Shown here: one piece after another, positions 48,315 through 59,553 of the stretch
How positions within the stretch are numbered: the first letter of the stretch is position 1
Layout of the letters: every line of letters starts with the position of its first letter
Source of the DNA: Streptomyces mangrovisoli
GTDB taxonomy: Bacteria; Actinomycetota; Actinomycetes; Streptomycetales; Streptomycetaceae
Length of the DNA stretch: 64,000 bases
Direction of reading: 5' to 3'
Assembly (NCBI RefSeq): GCF_000974985.2
Contig: NZ_LAVA02000046.1
Span: 1-64,000 of the forward strand
Notes under the pieces: model-generated
Told to the model about the DNA's origin: nothing
The model's database searches: none
Seen by the model: only the letters and a program-made list of their open reading frames with translations
Position numbers and translations under genes: made by a program

Positions 48315-48529
48315 TCCGAGGCGCGACCTGCTCCAGCAGACGTTCAGCAACTCCCCTCCGGCAGACGTCGGACACTTCGGGAGGCGTTCAGCCACTCCTG
48401 CCGAAGTTCAGCCGCTCCCGCAGGCGTTCACCGTCGACCCGGCCCAGAGACATTTGCTGACCCAGCGAACCTTGTTGTGCTTTCCTGGCTGAAAGCACAT
48501 CGCAACATCCTTTCGGGGAAGGAAAGTTG

Positions 48530-50785
48530 ATGGCGGGGGAAATTCCCAGACAGTGGGCGGCCGCCACGCACGGATCGATCGTGAACCAGGCGGCCGGTGA
48601 CATCATCCAGCTGATCTCCTCCGCCCCCTCGCTGGGACACCAGCCGGGGATGGAGAGCATCGTTGCGCCGTACGGCCAGCTTCCCCGGGTGATCCGCGGT
48701 CGCGCCTCACTGCTGGACGAACTGACCGACGCGGTCCTACGACCCCACCCCCACCCCCGCGTCCACGTACTGCACGGGATCGGCGGTAGCGGCAAGACGA
48801 CCGTGGCGCTCGAAGTGGCCCGCCGGGCGCAGACATCGATGCCCGTGTGGTGGGTGTCCGCCGCCGGCGCCGACACGCTCAGCTCGGGCATGCGCCAGCT
48901 GGCGCTCGCCCTCGGAGCGGACATCGAGCAGATACAACTTGCCTGGTCCGGACAGGCCAGCGCATCGGATCTGGTGTGGAGCCTGCTGGACGCCCGCACC
49001 GACCACTGGCTGCTCGTCGTGGACAACGCGGACGACTCCCAGCTGCTGGCCCCCGCGCACGGACGCGTGGCCGGCGGGACGGGCTGGATCCGGCATCCCC
49101 GTTCCGCCCGGGGCACGCTCCTGGTCACCCGGCGCAGCAGGGATCCGCGCCTGTGGGGGACCTGGGCCGAACTGCGCCTGGTCGACCAGCTCTCCCCCGA
49201 GGACGGGGCCCAGGTGCTGCTCGACCTGGTCGGCGCCACCGCGGGAAGCGAGTCGGACGCCCAGGCACTCGCCACCGACCTGCAAGGGCTTCCCCTGGCG
49301 CTGCGCCTGGCGGGCGCGTATCTGCGCGAGTCGGTCACCCAGCCGCCCTGGCCCGGAACCAGCCCCGTGCGCAGTTTTGCCGCCTACCAGCGGACGTTGC
49401 GCTCCCGCTTCACCCTGCTCGACACCACGCCGCCGGGTCAGTACGAGGACCGCACCCAGCAGGAACTGATCACGCGTACCTGGGAGTTGTCCCTGGATCT
49501 CCTGCACGCGCAGGGCAAGGACCAGCCCCGTCCCCTGCTCAGGCTCCTCGCCCACCTGGCCGACGCGCCGATCCCGTTCGTGCTGCTCCTCGATCCGGCA
49601 ATCCTCTCGGACTCCCCCGAGGTCGGCCCCATCACCTTCGAGCAACTGCACCGGGCGCTGACGAGCCTCGCCGATCTCGCGCTGATCGACATGACCACGC
49701 GTCCCGACCCCAACCCCGACAACCCTCTCGCCTATACGCTCAGTCTGCACGCCCTGGTGCGCGCCACGAACCGCGAGCATCCCCAAGTCGTGGCGCGCAG
49801 GCCGGAGTACCTGGACGTCCTGGGGGCGAGCATGCACAAGGTCACCGACGCCCTGGATCCCGACGAGCCGGCCGCGTGGCCGGCCTGGCAGTTCCTGGCG
49901 CCGCACGCCAGCAGCCTGCTGGAGCTGCTGGCGACCAGCGTCGACATCGACCGCGAGACGGCCCGGGAGCTCTCCAGAGCCGCCCAGGGCTCCGCCGACT
50001 ACTTCGGCGCGCTGGGCATGTACGAGCGCGCGGAGACCGAATACCGCGCCGTCCTCGACGTCCAGCGCCTCGTGATCGGCGAGGACCACCCCGACACGCT
50101 GAGCACGCGGCACAATCTCGCCTACACCCTGCGCGACCGCGGGATGCTCGAAGCGGCCGAGACCGAATACCGCGACGTACTCGCCGTACGACGCCGGGTC
50201 CTCGGCGAAGAACACGCCAAGACACTGGTCACCCGCAACCAACTCGCCCGCGTCTACCGCGAACAGGGCCGCTACGAAGAGGCGGAGGAAGAGTTCCGCA
50301 ATGTACTCGCCGCACAACGCCTCACGCTCGGCGAACAGAACCTCGACACGCTCATAACCCGCAGCAATCTGGCGTCGATGTACTTCGTGTCCCGCAAACT
50401 CGACGAAGCCGAGGCCGAATACCGCGACATCCTCGCCACCGAACGCCGCGCCCTGGGCGAGGACCACCTCGAAAGCCTCGTCACCCACGGCAACCTCGCA
50501 CGCGTGCTGGCCGAACAAGGACGATTCGACCAGGCCGAGGCCGAGTACCGCGACGTGCTCTCCGCCGAGACACGTGTCCTGGGCGACGAACACCCGGACA
50601 CCCTCACCACACGCCACAACCTCGCGGCGACACTCGCCGCCCAAGGACGCCAGGCGCAAGCCCGCAAGGAATTCCAGGCGGTCCTCGAAGCACGCGAACG
50701 CCTGCTCGGCCCCGACCATCCCAACACCCGCCAGACCGGCACAGCACTCGCCCTCCTCGCCGCGCCGCCGGACGAACCGGTGTAG
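48530..50785 (+). CDS. NB-ARC / STAND ATPase with kinesin-light-chain-type TPRs
   Basis: The protein has 751 residues from ATG 48530, with GGAAGGAA upstream. Residues 14-27 (HGSIVNQAAGDIIQ) carry the NQAxGD motif seen in the two genes before it. The NB-ARC core has Walker A GIGGSGKT (83-90), Walker B LLVVDNADD (161-169), a sensor TLLVTRRSRDP and the GLPLALRLAGAYL winged-helix motif. From about 480 come some six 42-residue TPR_12 repeats (YERAETEYRAVLDVQRLVIG, LDEAEAEYRDILATERRALG). Such proteins are prokaryotic relatives of plant and animal NLRs; in Streptomyces they are abundant and mostly unexplained. There are 215 bases between it and the previous STAND gene, same strand. Confidence 0.85.
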   Translation: MAGEIPRQWAAATHGSIVNQAAGDIIQLISSAPSLGHQPGMESIVAPYGQLPRVIRGRASLLDELTDAVLRPHPHPRVHVLHGIGGSGKTTVALEVARRAQTSMPVWWVSAAGADTLSSGMRQLALALGADIEQIQLAWSGQASASDLVWSLLDARTDHWLLVVDNADDSQLLAPAHGRVAGGTGWIRHPRSARGTLLVTRRSRDPRLWGTWAELRLVDQLSPEDGAQVLLDLVGATAGSESDAQALATDLQGLPLALRLAGAYLRESVTQPPWPGTSPVRSFAAYQRTLRSRFTLLDTTPPGQYEDRTQQELITRTWELSLDLLHAQGKDQPRPLLRLLAHLADAPIPFVLLLDPAILSDSPEVGPITFEQLHRALTSLADLALIDMTTRPDPNPDNPLAYTLSLHALVRATNREHPQVVARRPEYLDVLGASMHKVTDALDPDEPAAWPAWQFLAPHASSLLELLATSVDIDRETARELSRAAQGSADYFGALGMYERAETEYRAVLDVQRLVIGEDHPDTLSTRHNLAYTLRDRGMLEAAETEYRDVLAVRRRVLGEEHAKTLVTRNQLARVYREQGRYEEAEEEFRNVLAAQRLTLGEQNLDTLITRSNLASMYFVSRKLDEAEAEYRDILATERRALGEDHLESLVTHGNLARVLAEQGRFDQAEAEYRDVLSAETRVLGDEHPDTLTTRHNLAATLAAQGRQAQARKEFQAVLEARERLLGPDHPNTRQTGTALALLAAPPDEPV

Positions 50786-52623: not shown

Positions 52624-52763
52624 CGCGCCATCCTCGCAGCTCAGCATCACGGAAGGGCACCTTCCGGACTCTTGGTCATCTCGATCCGGTGACCGGCCGC
52701 CTGAGCGGGGTGAAGCGTGTGGTTTCGCCGAACACTGACGCCGTGCGGGACGCGGCCCCGTGC

Positions 52764-53431
52764 TGCGCAATCGACTCAGAACCAGTGCGCAGTCCCGGCC
52801 CGGCGAGGCACTGTGCGGCCTGGCTGAGCAGCAGACACCGGACCGAGTGCATGCGTGCGCAGCCCACCACTGCCGAACCTGGGCACTGCGCAGCGTCGGC
52901 GCAGGCCGAAGCGGCGTAGCCGGTGGTCGGTGCCGCAGCAAGCGGCTTGATGCCCCTGCACACCGGATGTCCAGCCGCCCCTCGCACGACGCGCGGGCCG
53001 ACGCCCAGTGCCAGCCGGGATCCGTCCCTGTGGTCGGACATCCGGTCAGGGCGTGGTCAGTGTGACCACGGGCTTCGTGCCGCGATCGTGACCGTGGTCG
53101 GGTCCCCATGGTCAGCCTTCCGGTCGGGTGCCCGGTTGCCTCCGGTGCTAGCGCCCGTCGCCGACACCGTCCCCCGCACGTCTTCACCACTGCGCACAAC
53201 GGCCGCCTCCACACACGGAACACACAGGCGTGCGCAGCTGTTCGCGCAAGCGCGGCTGCGCAGCAGCAACGACCGTGCAGACAGTGCGCAGGCCCGGCTG
53301 CGCATCGCCCCGACCCGACCGTCGACCTGCCCGAACCGGTGGCCGGGGTGCGCAATCCGCGCCGCAGACCGTCCTGGTCGTGCGCAGGCGCAGGTTTCGG
53401 CTGCGCAGTCGCTGGTGGCGGTAGCTGCGCA
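52764..53431. repeat. Composite array: 13 TGCGCA palindromes around a GTGGTC cluster
   Basis: TGCGCA starts at 52764, 52786, 52856, 52887, then at 53191, 53231, 53257, 53285, 53299, 53349, 53381, 53402 and 53426. The gap between the two groups holds GTGGTC at 52923, 53030, 53053 and 53094, plus an inverted copy at 53064. The pair at 53052-53070 forms a perfect 8-bp inverted repeat, CGTGGTCA-GTG-TGACCACG. TGCGCA is rare elsewhere in the window. This looks like an array of protein-binding sites (partition, transfer, replication or nucleoid function), but no owner protein is visible. Confidence 0.65.
53052..53070. promoter_or_regulatory. Perfect 8-bp inverted repeat CGTGGTCA/TGACCACG
   Basis: Arms 53052-53059 and 53063-53070, loop GTG. 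It lies in the middle of the GTGGTC cluster and is probably a dimeric binding site. Confidence 0.5.
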
Positions 53432-53544
53432 GTACGCAGACGACCGGCAGCGGCTGAACGTGCTGCGCGACCTCGCGGCCAGCCGGAGGCCCGATCATGT
53501 GTCATCGTTCGCAGGGGACTTCTCGGCGTACCCTCTCGAAGCGG

Positions 53545-53943
53545 TCAACGGCGCACCCGATAGCGCAGGTGAAGCACCCGGTCGCCCTGGACCACCTCGT
53601 CAGGATCCTCGAAGAGATGCTGCGTGTGGACCGACCCGAAGTAGCGCTTGCCGGAGCCGAACACGACGGGTACGACGTCCATGCGTACCTCGTCGATCAG
53701 GCCCGCGTCAAGGACCTGGCCACCGACGTCGCCGGCGGCAACCTCGACGATGCGGTCGCCCGCCAGCTCCTGCGCCTTGGCCATGGCTGCCTCGACGCCG
53801 TCGACGAAGTGAAACGGCGCCTGGGGGTCCCAGCCCTCGGGCTCTGGCCGGTGTGTCACGACGACCACGTGGTCGACCGCCGACACAGAGCTGTACATGA
53901 CCACCTTGCCCACCGGGATCTCCTCCGCTTCGGGGTGCCCCAA
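53545..53943 (-). pseudogene. Dihydrofolate-reductase-family (RibD C-terminal-like) gene with internal deletion
   Basis: The frame has the family start (GKVVMYSSVSAVD), then jumps straight to HVVVVTHRPEPEGWDPQAPF, FVDGVEAAMAKAQELAGDRI, DVGGQVLDAGLIDEVRMDVV and PVVFGSGKRYFGSVHTQHLF. Intact relatives (about 180-190 residues) have some 70 residues between the first and second segments, including much of the substrate and NADPH site. The frame is kept, so a short protein may still be made, but it should not be an active reductase. Confidence 0.65.
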
Positions 53944-54001: not shown

Positions 54002-55399
54002 TCAGGGTCGTCCCCTCGCCACGGGAGTGCTGTCGCCAGACGGCCCGAGTGGTCGGCCATGAGTGGTGACAGGCGACGGGGTGGGGTCCTCGCCGTTCGT
54101 GTGCGGGCACGCGTGTGAAGCTTCACCGTTGCGCGGCTCGCCTGGCCGAGCCGCGGCCTGCACCGCCAGATCCGACAGCAGGACTTCAGCCACCAGTTCT
54201 TCGACCACGGCCGTTCCGTGCTCGGCGATGGCAGGGACCAGCCCGGGGTCCCAGGGAGCGTCGGTCAGGCGGCCGGGCCCGGGCCCGTGAGGGGTGCGCC
54301 GCACCGCGGCACGATAGTCCGCGGCCGTCATGCGCCAGGGGCGGACCGGCGTCTTGTCCAGCAGGTAGGCCGCGATGCGGATGCCCTCACCGTCGAAGTC
54401 GCCGTGGTAGAGCAGGGTGGCGCCCCGATCCGCCAGGAGGCGCAGGTAATGGACGGCCGCGCTGTTGGGCCAGCCGGACGTGCACACCAGCGGTGGACAG
54501 TCCGGGCCGAAGCGCCGCAGGGCCAGGGCCACAATGCTGGGGTTCTCGACGGCGTGCACGACAGGCGGGGGATGACCGGCGAGGGTGAAATCGCCCGGGG
54601 CCCGCACTTGGGCAAGGGTCAGGCTGGCGGCCTGGCCTGCCTCGGCACAGGCTCGGGCCACGCGGGCGAGCGTTCCCTCGCCGGCCGGGCGCAGTCCGGC
54701 GACGAGAACGGTGGCCGACAGGTCGTCGTCTGCGACACCCGCGCGCGCCCACAGAGCACGCCGGTCCGCAGCGGAGTTCGGCACGGCGCACGCGTGGAGG
54801 ACCGCCAGGGCCCGCAGGACGAGGGTGGACAGCCGGGTGCCGTCGTCCAGTGCGTGGGAGTCGCCCTTGAGGACCCGGGCGGCGAAGACCGGAAGAGGCT
54901 CGGCCGCGGCCGGGAGGTCCGCGAGCACGGCCAGCGCCTGCGCGAGCAGCACTCGGGTCCCCTCCGGTGAGCCGCCGACCAGGCCCGCGGCGCGGCACGA
55001 GGCGGTCCAGTCGGCGAGCGCGGGCTGGGCCCGCACGGTGGCGTGAGCGTCCAGCCAGGCCCATGTCCGGGCACGCGCGTCCTCCTCCCGGCGCCGGTCC
55101 GCCGCGCGGTCGGCGAGCGGGCCGACAAGCTCGGTGACGGTCTCGCGTACCGTGCGCCCGGACAGCTCGGTGACGGCCTCTTCCAGCCGGGCCAGAGAGA
55201 CGTAAGGGCGCGGGTCCGGCAGGCGGTCGAGGCCCAGGAGGTCGGCGAGCGCCTCGCGTTGGGCCTCGTCGAGCGGGCCGATGCGCACGCGGGTGACGGG
55301 GCGGCCGGAACAGAGCCGGCTGTGGACCATGGCCCACAGCGGGCGGAGTTCGGCACGGCGCAGGGTGCCGTCACCGGGGGCCGGCTCGGTGTGGGTCAT
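54002..55399 (-). CDS. jetD: Wadjet JetD, Toprim-type nuclease subunit
   Basis: The product has 465 residues from ATG 55399, overlapping the jetC stop as ATGA. The C-terminal DUF2399/Toprim-like domain has Glu285 in HAVENPSIVAL and Asp334/Asp336 in LYHGDFDGEGIRIAAYLL, the metal-binding set of topoisomerase VI/Spo11-like nucleases. The N-terminal 270 residues are the TIGR02679-type region (VTRVRIGPLDEAQREALADL, LVLRALAVLHACAVPNSAAD). JetD cleaves small circular DNA that the JetABC condensin complex has extruded. An extra, low-complexity tail of about 60 residues (SHACPHTNGEDPTPSPVT) follows the domain. Last gene of jetABCD. Confidence 0.92.
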   Translation of the reverse strand: MTHTEPAPGDGTLRRAELRPLWAMVHSRLCSGRPVTRVRIGPLDEAQREALADLLGLDRLPDPRPYVSLARLEEAVTELSGRTVRETVTELVGPLADRAADRRREEDARARTWAWLDAHATVRAQPALADWTASCRAAGLVGGSPEGTRVLLAQALAVLADLPAAAEPLPVFAARVLKGDSHALDDGTRLSTLVLRALAVLHACAVPNSAADRRALWARAGVADDDLSATVLVAGLRPAGEGTLARVARACAEAGQAASLTLAQVRAPGDFTLAGHPPPVVHAVENPSIVALALRRFGPDCPPLVCTSGWPNSAAVHYLRLLADRGATLLYHGDFDGEGIRIAAYLLDKTPVRPWRMTAADYRAAVRRTPHGPGPGRLTDAPWDPGLVPAIAEHGTAVVEELVAEVLLSDLAVQAAARPGEPRNGEASHACPHTNGEDPTPSPVTTHGRPLGPSGDSTPVARGRP

Positions 55400-58300
55400 C
55401 GCGCCTCCAGGTCGGTGCCGTTCCAGACGAAGCGGGCGCTGGTGACGGCGTCGTCGTCCCCGTCGGTGAGCAGCTGGTGGACCGCGATGCCCGGCAACTC
55501 GCGGTAGCTGCACCACTCGTGGTCGGAGGTGATCATGAGGTCGAGGTCGAGAGCGGTGAGCAGGGCGAAGACCTGTCCCCGGTTGACGGTGTCCACGCCG
55601 ACGAAGACCTCGTCCAGCAGGATGGGCCTCGGAGCAAGCGGTACGGCCTCGTAGTGGGCGGCGACAGCGGCGAACAGCGGCAGGTGCAGGGCGATGGCCT
55701 TCTCTCCGCCGGAGAGCGCGCCGTGCAGTTTCTTGGTCAGCGGCTGCCAGCCGGTGCCGCCCGCCCGGTCCAGGCGCACGGTGAAGCGGTGCCAGGCGGT
55801 GTAGTCGAGTACCTCGCCGAGCTGCTCCTCCCAGCTCGCTGCCGTGTCGCTGCCCTTGGCCTCCTCGATGCGCGCGCGGAAGAAGGAGTGCAGTGCGGCC
55901 CGGTCCGCTTCGCCGACCCGGCCGGGGTCCTTGAGCAGCAGCTGACGGGCGGTACGGGTGCCGTCCGGCAGATCGGGGCGGACATCCCAGACGAGCTGGA
56001 CGGCGACGTTGGAGGCGGTCCGCACCCGCTCCAGGTGACCGTTCATGCGGTCGACGAGTTCGCCGGCCTGGCGGATGCGGGCGGCGAGGTGGCGGCGGAT
56101 GTCGCCGGTGAGGATCTGGTCGAAGAGGCTCCGCTCGGCGGTGGTGATGTCGTCACGGCTGCGGTCGCGTTCCTGGGCGAGGGTGGTGAGCAGGCCGGTG
56201 GCCCCCACGCGCAGGCCGTCCAGGGTGGCGTGGAACAGCTGGGTGTCGTCGTCGGGTTCCAGGTCCAGGTCGGCGCGGGCGCCCAGGCGCTGACGGGCTT
56301 CGTGGACGGCTTCCGACAGGCGGGTCGCGGCGTCCCCCAGGTTGCGTGGCGCGTGTGGAACCGTCGGCCATCTCGCCGCCGTGGCGCGGGCCGCCTCCAG
56401 GGTGGCCTTCGTGCCGTCACCGGCGTCGGGTTCGAGCGGGAGGCCCGCGTCCTCCGCGAGACCCACAAGACACAGGTGTCGGAACCGGTGTGCCGCACGG
56501 TCACGCTCGGCGACGGCTCGTTCCCGCCGCTCGGCGTCCTGTCCGCTGGTGGCGCGCAGCCCGCCGATACGGCCTTCCAGGCGTAGGAGGAGCTCGGACG
56601 CGCGGCCCGCCTCCTCACGGCAGCGCGTCAGTTCGGCCCGCGCTTCGGCGACGCGTGCGACGATCTGCCGGTAGTCCTCGCCGGCGGTGGCCTCCACCGC
56701 CTGAAGTCGCGCTGTCAGCCCCACCGCCTCGGCTTCGGCGGCTGCCGCCTTCTCCGTCTCCTTCTCGGCCGTCCGGTGCGCGCGTTCTGCCTGCGTGGTG
56801 ATCTGACGGGACCGGTGGGCCGCGGCGGTCGCGGCAAGCCGGGCATCCACCCAGAGGTCGGCGCGGTCCCTGAACCCCTCGACGTCGCGGGAGAGTTCGT
56901 GCAACCGGACCCGATCGGTGGGCAGACCGTGTTCTGCCGCCCGGCGGCTGAGCGTGCGCAGGGCGTCGGTCACCGTGGACTCGCACCGCGCCACATGGGC
57001 GGCCGCGTCGCGTACGGCGTCGTCACGGGCGGCCACGTGCTCCTCGGCACGCTCCCAGGCACGTCGGCGGGCGTCGAGCTCACGGTGGTCGGGGCGGGCC
57101 TGCCGGTCCGCCTTCAGCCCCTCCCGGCGCGCGTCGAGGCCGCGCAGCTGGTCGTCGAGCGCGGCAATCCTCGCGTTCGCCTCGCTGATGAGTTCGGACA
57201 GCTCGCCGATCCTGCGCCGGCGGGCCCGCAGCCGCGCGACGGCGCCGATGTGAGCGGGCTCCGACTTGCTCCACGTTCCCGTGGCCAGCGCGAGACGCCA
57301 GGCTCCGTCGGCACCGACCGCCGCCGGATGGCCTCCGGGAAGCGTGGAGCCGTACGCGACGCCGGCGAGGATGCGCAGCACGGTGTCGACCGGGACGGGA
57401 ATGTCGTCCTCGGGTTGGAGCACGTCCAGCAGACTGGGCCCGGCGGCGGCCAGGGCCAGCGTCGCTTCGGCCCGGGTGTCGTGCCCCGGCAGCGTGATCC
57501 CGTCGTAGGGGCTGACCCAGGCGTCCAGGAGGCCCGATGCCTCAAGTGCCGCCTCCACCGCGGCCTGAACGGCAAGCGGAACACCTTCCCGGAAGGCGAC
57601 CAGGCGCCACAGCGGCGCGCCCGCCGTGGCCGTGCGGACGGTGGTGCGGGTCGCCGGAGGCACCGGTGGCAGGTCGCTCTCACCGCTCAGCCGTCGGACC
57701 TCCTCCTCGACGCGGCTCCGCTCGTCCCGCACCTGTGCACGCGCGGCCGTCGCAAGGGCCGCCGAGGTGGCGATCTCCTGCTCCACCGGTCGGGCAGCAC
57801 CTTCGACCAGCGCCGTCACCTCCGACTCGGTCCCGGCCGAGGCCGCCAGCTCGTCGAGGTCGGCAATACGCAGTTCCGCGCAGTCGTCGGCCCAGGCGAG
57901 GAGGCGTTCCGTATGGTCGGCCAGGGCGGCGTCCCACGCCCCGGACGCCTCGTCCCGCCTCGTGATCGCCTCCGAGAGCCGGCCGCGGGCCTCTTCCAGC
58001 AGGCCCTCGGCAGCGCCCCTGTCCCGCACGGCGCGGTCGTGGCCGTCCATCGCCTCGGTGATGAGGCCCACCTGCTCGCGCCGCGCGGCGACCGCGCCCC
58101 GCAGCAACGATCGTGCCTGCCGTGCCCCGTACTCACCCGCACTGCGCGCACCGCTCGACCCCGCGGGCCGGGCCCCGCCCGCGTCCTCCTGCGCACGGTC
58201 GGCGCGTTCTGCCGCCCGGTTCGCGTCGAGCAGCGTCGTCACCTCGCGGTGGATCGACTCCATGCCCGCCGCCCGTGCCGCCCGTCGCGCCTCCTCGGCG

Positions 58301-59553
58301 GTTTCGCGTGCGTGCGCGTCGAGGGAGCGGGCCTGGCCGGCTGCCTCGTCGGCTTGCCTCTGGTCCTCACCTGCTCCGTTCCGGGCGGCCCGGGCAGCGC
58401 CGCGCTGCCGCCCGGCGGCGGCCACCGCCTCCTCCGTGTGCCGCCGCAGGCGGTCGAGTTCCTCACCCTGCTTGTACGCGTCGCTCTCGCGCAGAGCGTC
58501 GACGGTCTCCTGCAGGGCGTGCGCGCGAAGCTGCTGTTCCTCGTGCCGGAGCCGAGCGGACTCTCTTTCCTCCAGCGCCTGTTGGAGGTCCTCCGCGCTC
58601 TGCCGGGCGGCCCGGGTGAGGTCGTCCATCTCGGTGGTCGCCGAGATCAGGGCGGCCGAGCCGGCGCGCAGGACGCGTCGTGAGTAGGCCCGCTGGCGGG
58701 ATGCGACGGTCTCCGCCGCGGCGACCTCGTCGTCGAGCCGTTTGAGGTGCTCGCGCTGGCGGTCCAGCCGTTCGAAGCCCTCGGCCAGTTCAGCGATCTC
58801 GCCGTCGCCCAGCGGAGGAAGGGCGCGGGACAGCAGCGTGGAGAGCAGGGACGGATCGAGCCGTTCGGACAGTTTGGGCTGCCGCAACTGGAGCAGAGCG
58901 GACACCAGCGACTCGTAGCGCTGCTCCCCCATCCCCCTGAACAGCTCTCGTCGTACGGCCGTACGGTAGTCGGCGGCCGAAGCGTGGACCTCGCCGCGGT
59001 CACGCAGGGACTCTGCGAGCGCTGCGCGCGTCAGCGGCTGACCGGCCTCGTTGACCAGAAGGACACCGGTGGGGTGCGCGATCCTGGCACCGGAGGTGAA
59101 GTAGTCGGCGTGCACCCCGCTGGTGTGCACACTGGCCTGCAGGCGGGCCCCGCAGCCGAACCACCGTGGTGCGCCGTCATCGTCGATGCGGCGGAACTCC
59201 ATCCACACATAACCGACACGCGTTTTTCCGGACGCCCCTTCGCCCAGCAGGTTCCAGTGCATGGTGCGTTCCGAACCGCCGAACGTGGACAGGCGGTTGG
59301 GGCGCAGGCTGGCGTCGAAGAGGAAGGGCAGCAGCAGCTCCAGGGCCTTGGACTTGCCCGATCCGTTCTGCCCGCGCAGCAGCAGGCGTCCCTGGTGGAA
59401 GGTGAAGGTCTCGTCGTAGTAACGCCAGACGTTGAGGATGCCCGCCCGGTGCGGCTGCCAGCGGCTGCCCGTCGCATCGACCGTGCCGGCCGCTGCCGCG
59501 GGCGGCTGTGCGGGCTCCGGTCGCCGCGGGAAGGGCAACTCCGTCACACTCAC
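55396..59553 (-). CDS. jetC: Wadjet JetC, MukB/SMC-like ATPase
   Basis: The protein has 1385 residues from GTG 59553 (GTGA overlap with jetB). Walker A is GQNGSGKS at 61-68 (LLLRGQNGSGKSKALELL). Long coiled coils run from about 290 to 580 and 700 to 1150 (ALEERESARLRHEEQQLRAH), with a hinge-like middle (WVSPYDGITLPGHDTRAEAT). ABC signature LSGGEK is at 1280-1285 and Walker B PILLDEVF at 1310-1317. These are the marks of TIGR02680-type SMC proteins. JetC is the motor that extrudes DNA loops and recognises small circles. Long open frames on the opposite strand across this gene are composition artefacts. Confidence 0.95.
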   Translation of the reverse strand: MSVTELPFPRRPEPAQPPAAAAGTVDATGSRWQPHRAGILNVWRYYDETFTFHQGRLLLRGQNGSGKSKALELLLPFLFDASLRPNRLSTFGGSERTMHWNLLGEGASGKTRVGYVWMEFRRIDDDGAPRWFGCGARLQASVHTSGVHADYFTSGARIAHPTGVLLVNEAGQPLTRAALAESLRDRGEVHASAADYRTAVRRELFRGMGEQRYESLVSALLQLRQPKLSERLDPSLLSTLLSRALPPLGDGEIAELAEGFERLDRQREHLKRLDDEVAAAETVASRQRAYSRRVLRAGSAALISATTEMDDLTRAARQSAEDLQQALEERESARLRHEEQQLRAHALQETVDALRESDAYKQGEELDRLRRHTEEAVAAAGRQRGAARAARNGAGEDQRQADEAAGQARSLDAHARETAEEARRAARAAGMESIHREVTTLLDANRAAERADRAQEDAGGARPAGSSGARSAGEYGARQARSLLRGAVAARREQVGLITEAMDGHDRAVRDRGAAEGLLEEARGRLSEAITRRDEASGAWDAALADHTERLLAWADDCAELRIADLDELAASAGTESEVTALVEGAARPVEQEIATSAALATAARAQVRDERSRVEEEVRRLSGESDLPPVPPATRTTVRTATAGAPLWRLVAFREGVPLAVQAAVEAALEASGLLDAWVSPYDGITLPGHDTRAEATLALAAAGPSLLDVLQPEDDIPVPVDTVLRILAGVAYGSTLPGGHPAAVGADGAWRLALATGTWSKSEPAHIGAVARLRARRRRIGELSELISEANARIAALDDQLRGLDARREGLKADRQARPDHRELDARRRAWERAEEHVAARDDAVRDAAAHVARCESTVTDALRTLSRRAAEHGLPTDRVRLHELSRDVEGFRDRADLWVDARLAATAAAHRSRQITTQAERAHRTAEKETEKAAAAEAEAVGLTARLQAVEATAGEDYRQIVARVAEARAELTRCREEAGRASELLLRLEGRIGGLRATSGQDAERRERAVAERDRAAHRFRHLCLVGLAEDAGLPLEPDAGDGTKATLEAARATAARWPTVPHAPRNLGDAATRLSEAVHEARQRLGARADLDLEPDDDTQLFHATLDGLRVGATGLLTTLAQERDRSRDDITTAERSLFDQILTGDIRRHLAARIRQAGELVDRMNGHLERVRTASNVAVQLVWDVRPDLPDGTRTARQLLLKDPGRVGEADRAALHSFFRARIEEAKGSDTAASWEEQLGEVLDYTAWHRFTVRLDRAGGTGWQPLTKKLHGALSGGEKAIALHLPLFAAVAAHYEAVPLAPRPILLDEVFVGVDTVNRGQVFALLTALDLDLMITSDHEWCSYRELPGIAVHQLLTDGDDDAVTSARFVWNGTDLEAR

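Follow-up and report, generated by a model that had tools for sequence, protein, structure and literature searches.

Thirteen copies of one palindromic hexamer lie within 668 bases of a Streptomyces mangrovisoli contig. What is this array, where does it come from, and what might bind it? The window, by which we mean the whole 64,000-nucleotide stretch analyzed (positions 1 to 64,000 of contig NZ_LAVA02000046.1), contains two groups of TGCGCA, of four and nine copies, around five sites of a second motif, GTGGTC. A first-pass annotation made from the sequence alone had described this layout, calling the spacing irregular and the density far above that of the remaining window, and had proposed a parS-like, clt-like or origin-like region.

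The palindrome array of the window

The layout is as that annotation described it: the palindromes of both groups, the GTGGTC sites and a perfect inverted repeat among them are all present (Table 1). Spacing within groups is irregular, at 14 to 70 bases, and 304 bases separate the two TGCGCA groups. The 13 copies per 668 bases compare with 0.35 per 668 bases in the remaining window. Markov models of order 1, 3, and 4 predict 0.26, 0.21, and 0.37 copies, respectively, and the maxima reached in 3,000 simulations each were 3, 3, and 4, so that chance arrays under the same composition model, raised at the outset as a possible refutation, do not account for the observed count. The search was then extended to the whole genome of 9.17 Mb, as had been proposed. 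Triple TGCGCA (gaps of 1 to 31) occurs at 16 forward places, compared with two in a backward-read control, and is concentrated in three loci: 15 of the 16 places belong to the window element, to a further copy near 139 kb of the window's own contig (C141), or to a locus at 55 to 56 kb of a second contig of the same genome (C164). The remaining one is on contig C2.

Table 1. Features of the palindrome array and of the element that contains it (window coordinates).
Feature	Position	Strand	Remarks
Whole element: remnant of a transfer-operon control region and 5' part of tcpC	52749..53464	+	blastn
Upstream TGCGCA block, 4 sites	52764..52892		Starts 52764, 52786, 52856, 52887
GTGGTC/GACCAC cluster, 5 sites	52923..53099		Second motif; promoter region in intact loci; GTGGTC starts (+) 52923, 53030, 53053, 53094; GACCAC start 53064
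Promoter-region core, conserved	53044..53137	+	81% identity to C164 transfer operon
Perfect inverted repeat GTGGTCA gtg TGACCAC	53053..53069		
Junction of ~200-base deletion relative to C164	53137..53155	+	tcpC start codon and N-terminus gone
tcpC remnant (TcpC-family conjugation protein)	53155..53465	+	blastn, 74% to C164
Downstream TGCGCA block, 9 sites	53191..53431		Inside tcpC remnant; starts 53191, 53231, 53257, 53285, 53299, 53349, 53381, 53402, 53426

The element lies between a gene without a Pfam match and a RibD_C fragment (53548-53943, minus strand; 132 amino acids, covering only part of the profile), beside Wadjet genes. These Wadjet-type defense genes, JetD2 (E 1e-141) and JetC2 (E 0), occupy 54005-59550 on the minus strand and directly adjoin the element. 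An NB-ARC/AAA_16 and TPR protein with internal DNA repeats is encoded at 48527-50782 on the plus strand.

Origin of the window element

Searched in distant mode with the element, 72,556 plasmid records yielded 16 matches, all from Streptomyces. In 14 of these plasmids the matched DNA is annotated as a "conjugal transfer protein"; of the other two records, one carries no annotation and one lacks a feature at this place. We trace the element to the control region of a transfer operon, T4SS-like in type, that giant plasmids of Streptomyces carry. Among 60 relatives, 14 matched the element at E 0.001, mostly over 26 to 60 bases, which we treated as chance; only two (G011 and G024) matched over more than about 70 bases. 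A viral origin was considered and rejected: the element has no match among phage records, and of 80 pattern matches that TcpC gave in viral contigs, none was confirmed.

The first gene of the intact operon encodes a TcpC protein (PF12642, E 7.8e-15). In plasmid NZ_CP108729, the gene order is divergent genes B and A, the intergenic region, tcpC, two small genes, a VirB4-like ATPase gene (AAA_10), two genes, an NlpC/P60-SLT protein gene, another gene, and an ATP/GTP-binding protein gene. The genome that contains the window has a nearly complete operon of its own on C164, bounded by tcpC (55579) and the ATP/GTP-binding gene (42887); one of the small genes went undetected there, gene A is absent, and only the C-terminal part of B matched. 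The VirB4-like ATPase and further transfer genes follow tcpC in C164 as in two plasmids that carry arrays (W02 and W04), and in all three a Replic_Relax gene comes after the operon by position. The C164 tcpC is flanked by TGCGCA blocks of nine and eight sites.

The window element aligns to the inverted C164 locus in two pieces, at 74% and 81% identity (blastn). Its tcpC remnant corresponds approximately to residues 89 to 189 of the genome's own TcpC (51%, E 2.7e-17, by tblastn and DNA alignment); the start and the 3' part are lost, and small indels disturb the frame. A full-length TcpC query, searched together with the other transfer proteins, missed this remnant at the cutoff used there. The second copy on C141 (138988-139701) is 81% identical over 738 columns (blastn) and has the same deletion of about 200 bases. 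Since this deletion is common to both, we infer that the two copies are duplicates of one truncated ancestor. Differences between them, sorted by former codon position, amount to 0.20, 0.24, and 0.18, an even spread as expected of noncoding drift. The upstream TGCGCA block of the window is partly common to the second copy and gave no blastn alignment to plasmid DNA; its position and motif match those of the upstream block of intact loci.

Both C141 copies lack the tcpC start codon and the downstream operon, and searches of C141, window included, with the VirB4-like ATPase and the other transfer proteins tried gave no match. We therefore count the window copy as an operon remnant; it is not itself the control region of a TcpC/VirB4-type operon. 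The palindromes in it have been kept somewhat better than other hexamers: TGCGCA is identical in the other C141 copy at 8 of 13 and 8 of 11 sites, compared with 35% of all hexamers (binomial 0.043 and 0.011, for sites that are not independent). Against such retention, only six of the nine aligned sites of the genome's own tcpC are kept in their exact place in the window copy, and four of the nine in the second copy. The window copy is probably vestigial, though the C164 system may still bind it.

TGCGCA and GTGGTC in intact tcpC loci

Conservation in relatives had been proposed as a check on the array, and the intact tcpC loci do keep TGCGCA arrays at the DNA level. We selected 15 plasmid loci by hand along the identity range from 167 plasmid records with a tcpC relative and counted TGCGCA in the 700 bases upstream of tcpC and within the gene. 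The counts (upstream/gene) are 8/9 in L048, 7/8 in L049, 9/8 in L050, 8/9 in L051, 9/9 in L052, 9/9 in L063, 9/9 in L064, 3/7 in L065, 6/7 in L066, 8/9 in L067, 0/3 in L068, 0/0 in L069, 3/7 in L070, 1/0 in L071, and 0/0 in L072; the two regions together thus hold 13 to 18 copies in nine loci, 10 in two, and 0 to 3 in four. The background of these loci is 0 to 0.9 per 700 bases (1.4 in L071). Intact relatives mostly have 6 to 10 copies upstream and 6 to 9 within the tcpC coding sequence. A tcpC gene was found at E 1e-10 in 52 of 295 genomes of the window's genus, and 23 of 30 genome loci contain at least eight TGCGCA in the 700 upstream bases and the gene.

Within tcpC, the sites of L048 begin at +205, 242, 268, 296, 311, 359, 391, 398, and 437. 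These positions are near-constant among close relatives. They differ in L067 and L070, whose TcpC sequences share 52% and 45% identity, respectively, with the L048 protein, and the count is still high there. The sites are read in two reading frames, as Ala-Gln and as Leu/Val-Arg in L048, and once, in L100, in the third. When codons were shuffled synonymously (1,000 shuffles per gene), the mean count was 0.28 to 1.30, versus 5 to 9 in the real genes, with p 0.001 in 35 of 45 genes, which are related by descent and do not represent 45 independent events. In the remaining 10 genes, p was 0.005 for L068 and 0.026 for L095 and was not significant for L069, L071, L072, L097, L099, L101, L102, and L103. 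Because the shuffles recover so few sites, it is the DNA itself, rather than the protein, through which TGCGCA is conserved within tcpC.

The core is strict in the block outside the gene. The upstream noncoding blocks of nine plasmid loci contain 69 TGCGCA against 1.0 expected, and each one-base variant occurs 0 to 4 times. Bases next to the hexamer follow a weak symmetric preference, R-N-TGCGCA-N-Y, of the kind that a dimer site would have. In three replicons or contigs, all palindromic hexamers were compared, and every time TGCGCA formed the strongest cluster. The pattern as a whole points to an undescribed DNA-binding array.

In intact loci, GTGGTCGG makes up the GTGGTC cluster, repeated in both orientations between about -154 and -68 relative to the start of tcpC. 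The repeated unit has changed to GTGGAGGG in L066, where TGCGCA is retained, and L095 retains GTGGTCGG with only two TGCGCA. Since each of these loci keeps one motif while the other changes, GTGGTC and TGCGCA belong to two systems, and the GTGGTC cluster is, judged by this comparison, a second, separately evolving promoter motif. The promoter unit of L069, L070, and L103 contains GTGGTGA, and TGCGCA is retained in L070. A promoter box like that of tcpC, without TGCGCA, also precedes Replic_Relax genes in L048 (985-1046) and on contig C17 of the window's genome (11387-11447). We interpret the cluster as the operator for a transfer-gene regulator, one that the Replic_Relax genes would share.

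Candidate binders and readings of the array

Triple clusters occur in 13 of 17 plasmid records scanned, and in four of the six array plasmids listed in full (W01, W03, W04, and W05) a second array is located at the 3' end of a gene that we call D. In W02 and W06, D is present and its gene has no TGCGCA cluster. Extra single triple clusters were also seen in W05 (C1:309529-309556) and W06 (C1:101312-101361). In L073 (2488-2902; NZ_CP108729.1 192487-192901), a ParA-family gene precedes a DUF2637 gene, and the array covers the 3' end of the latter and continues into the gene after it. In W01, all three frames are represented among the sites at the coding end of D.

D contains a DUF2637 domain (E 1.7e-47), which we take, from its hydrophobic stretches, to span the membrane. 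Its C-terminal part was modeled as four three-helix repeats (340 residues, mean pLDDT 77.8, pTM 0.41). Foldseek gave no match to this fold at E 0.001, and a sequence search against solved structures gave a best E of 0.083. The structure search with VIA ranked a SUN1 chain highest (Z 7.5), followed mostly by sigma-factor chains at Z 4.5 to 5.6, values within VIA's range for unrelated helical proteins. The modeled repeats may be helix-turn-helix-like; D is our candidate TGCGCA binder.

The distribution of D offers a further view of this candidacy. D matched over at least 80% of its length in 19 of the 342 plasmid records with any D match, and, among the 50 matches listed, those reaching the D C-terminus include 9 of the 10 array plasmids (W01 to W10), W08 being the one not there. 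Of 48 loci found by the D C-terminus, 25 have at least four TGCGCA within -200 to +500 of the D end and 23 have fewer. The corresponding fraction is 5 of 30 among genome loci fetched in the same way, in which D C-termini of about 34 to 47% identity, that of the window's genome included (C164:36560-37759), have 0 to 2 TGCGCA near the end. Three plasmids with only the N-terminal part of D (L192 to L194) have scattered TGCGCA and no cluster. At the genome level, the D C-terminus is present in 18 of the 21 genomes of L074 to L094, which have 6 to 9 tcpC sites each, versus 4 of 31 other tcpC genomes (Fisher 2e-7), only nine of these 31 having had loci examined for arrays. Two of the four D-bearing genomes in the latter group (G093 and G269) also carry nine sites each. 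D gave no match in 3 of the 21 array genomes (G091, G264, and G011), and 15 of 33 D genomes are outside the array group. This co-occurrence of D and tcpC fits D as the binder and may equally arise from linkage on one plasmid backbone, which would look alike.

The divergent gene A, which lies beside the array in close plasmids, encodes tandem winged-helix repeats with weak HTH_36/MarR_2 matches. We disfavor its product as the TGCGCA binder: no TGCGCA or GTGGTCGG cluster was found within 4 kb of five A relatives not beside tcpC (L104, at 73% identity; L105; L106, partial; L107; and L108), and A has no match in the window's genome. In a Streptomyces albidoflavus plasmid, the A relative (L107:3983-5044) lies directly before a dnaB helicase gene, which suggests a replication-initiator-like family.

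Based on these observations, we propose, with a probability of roughly 0.52, that the window element is a duplicated, decayed copy of the composite control array of a T4SS-like operon, and that this array forms a nucleoprotein complex that controls the operon. A plasmid-encoded protein would bind TGCGCA as a symmetric dimer or via several helix-turn-helix units. With many sites flanking the promoter, binding could be cooperative and produce a looped or bridged nucleoprotein complex, through which the transfer operon would be controlled. D would be the candidate for this role, its own gene carrying a TGCGCA array in part of the plasmids, and the complex may tether transfer-region DNA to the membrane beside the transfer machine through D's DUF2637 domain. 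At the GTGGTC cluster, a different regulator would have its operator. It is the layout of the sites that suggests regulation, tethering, and looping. A more far-reaching reading, which we consider doubtful, is that a membrane-anchored multi-repeat protein grips hexamer arrays plasmid-wide, anchoring the transfer region and switching the T4SS; it takes in both the array that runs into the first transfer gene and the one at the binder's own gene.

Other readings draw on the same loci. The suggestion that the region is parS-like, clt-like, or origin-like was borne out in its link to plasmid transfer, with clt, oriT, parS, and origin as putative identities. A role of the broken window copy itself, for instance as the decoy array that the annotation also considered, would be conjectural. 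An oriT- or clt-like start site, with the repeated TGCGCA as the loading place of the transfer machine and tcpC just happening to overlap it, is a possibility that we hold only tentatively. The array heads the transfer operon in intact loci, clt loci consist of short repeats (TRS; PMC4170104), and S. mirabilis pI, as described in the accessible text of PMC9195940, transfers and has a tcpC locus. PLSDB MOB-suite typing assigns a MOBP relaxase to 4 of the 10 array plasmids (W02, W03, W05, and W10); the other 6 have no typed relaxase, however, and a family search placed the PF03432 relaxase in none of the 10, nor in the window's genome. TrwC exceeded the cutoff in only two (W09 and W02) and FtsK/SpoIIIE (PF01580) in three (W01, W06, and W07), which leaves seven arrays without the latter, and the second array of W01, W03, W04, and W05, some 25 to 37 kb away, also sits poorly with a single start site. 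An initiator of another kind may nonetheless serve these plasmids. We think it unlikely that the arrays are centromere-like segregation sites with the DUF2637 protein acting as a ParB of unusual type. Segregational stability is indeed affected when SpdA2 binds sps palindromes (PMC4170104), and in W01 the DUF2637 gene and its array come after a ParA-family gene, but the parS sites of SCP1 are inverted repeats of 13 and 19 bp, of which each system has three, with no hexamer arrays in the accessible description (PMC13245405). Moreover, many D loci have no array, and partition by the ParA of W01 was rejected, since this protein has no tblastn match at E 1e-6 in three other array replicons (W02, W04, and C164).

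Less probable still, to the point of being a marginal reading, is that TGCGCA, which is also the sequence of a restriction site, is the target of a modification enzyme and that the array serves as bait or as a switch that senses methylation. Variants of the core are almost absent, and in L050, L051, L069, and L070 genes annotated as cytosine methyltransferases lie near the operon; yet L069 has such genes and no TGCGCA array, and the weak symmetric preference outside the hexamer suggests a binding protein. The view that a coding repeat, or composition, produces the density as a by-product can almost be dismissed. Decayed coding repeats had been named in advance as something that could undo the array, and the nine-site group is indeed decayed coding DNA, lying inside the tcpC remnant. 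Coding does not cause the density, however: the motif occurs in two reading frames, the other block lies in noncoding DNA, Markov models yield 0.2 to 0.4 sites per 668 bases, and for intact loci the by-product reading is refuted by the synonymous shuffles, which yield only 0.3 to 1.3 sites.

Conjugation in Streptomyces is known best from TraB, a route that relies on one protein, and how transfer starts and is controlled on large TcpC/VirB4 plasmids appears little studied in the literature searched. An array strict enough to constrain the code of the first transfer gene provides a direct handle on this system, in the form of a 6-bp target and a short list of candidate binding proteins, and illustrates clearly how a DNA motif can be superimposed on a protein-coding region in two frames. 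The literature searched (titles and abstract starts, with subscription papers mostly outside) contained no description of the TGCGCA array. Known already, from the accessible parts of the sources, are clt arrays, sps palindromes in plasmid genes, and tcpC loci on linear plasmids (PMC4170104, PMC9195940).

Set beside these systems, the array resembles several and coincides with none. Like S. mirabilis pI, a linear Streptomyces plasmid, the array loci combine a TcpC gene with an AAA-like (Pfam 12846) ATPase; the accessible description of the pI tcpC locus mentions no repeat array (PMC9195940). SCP1 offers inverted-repeat sites, parS1 and parS2, on a linear Streptomyces plasmid, although there three identical 13- or 19-bp sites surround each parAB operon (PMC13245405). 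The clt locus, in which 8-bp TRS repeats are bound by TraB, is by its description likewise a repeat array in a Streptomyces transfer region (PMC4170104), whereas the operon here is of the TcpC/VirB4 type and FtsK/SpoIIIE-type proteins exceed the cutoff in only three of the 10 array plasmids. Also comparable, by description, are the sps palindromes bound by SpdA2 in pIJ101-type plasmids: a conserved palindrome inside the coding sequence of a Streptomyces plasmid gene, bound by a plasmid-encoded DNA-binding protein (PMC4170104); the TGCGCA array here has a candidate binder. The sps palindrome is 12 bp long and present in one to three copies within spdA (PMC4170104), whereas in the array described here a strict core of 6 bp occurs up to 18 times, both before and inside tcpC.
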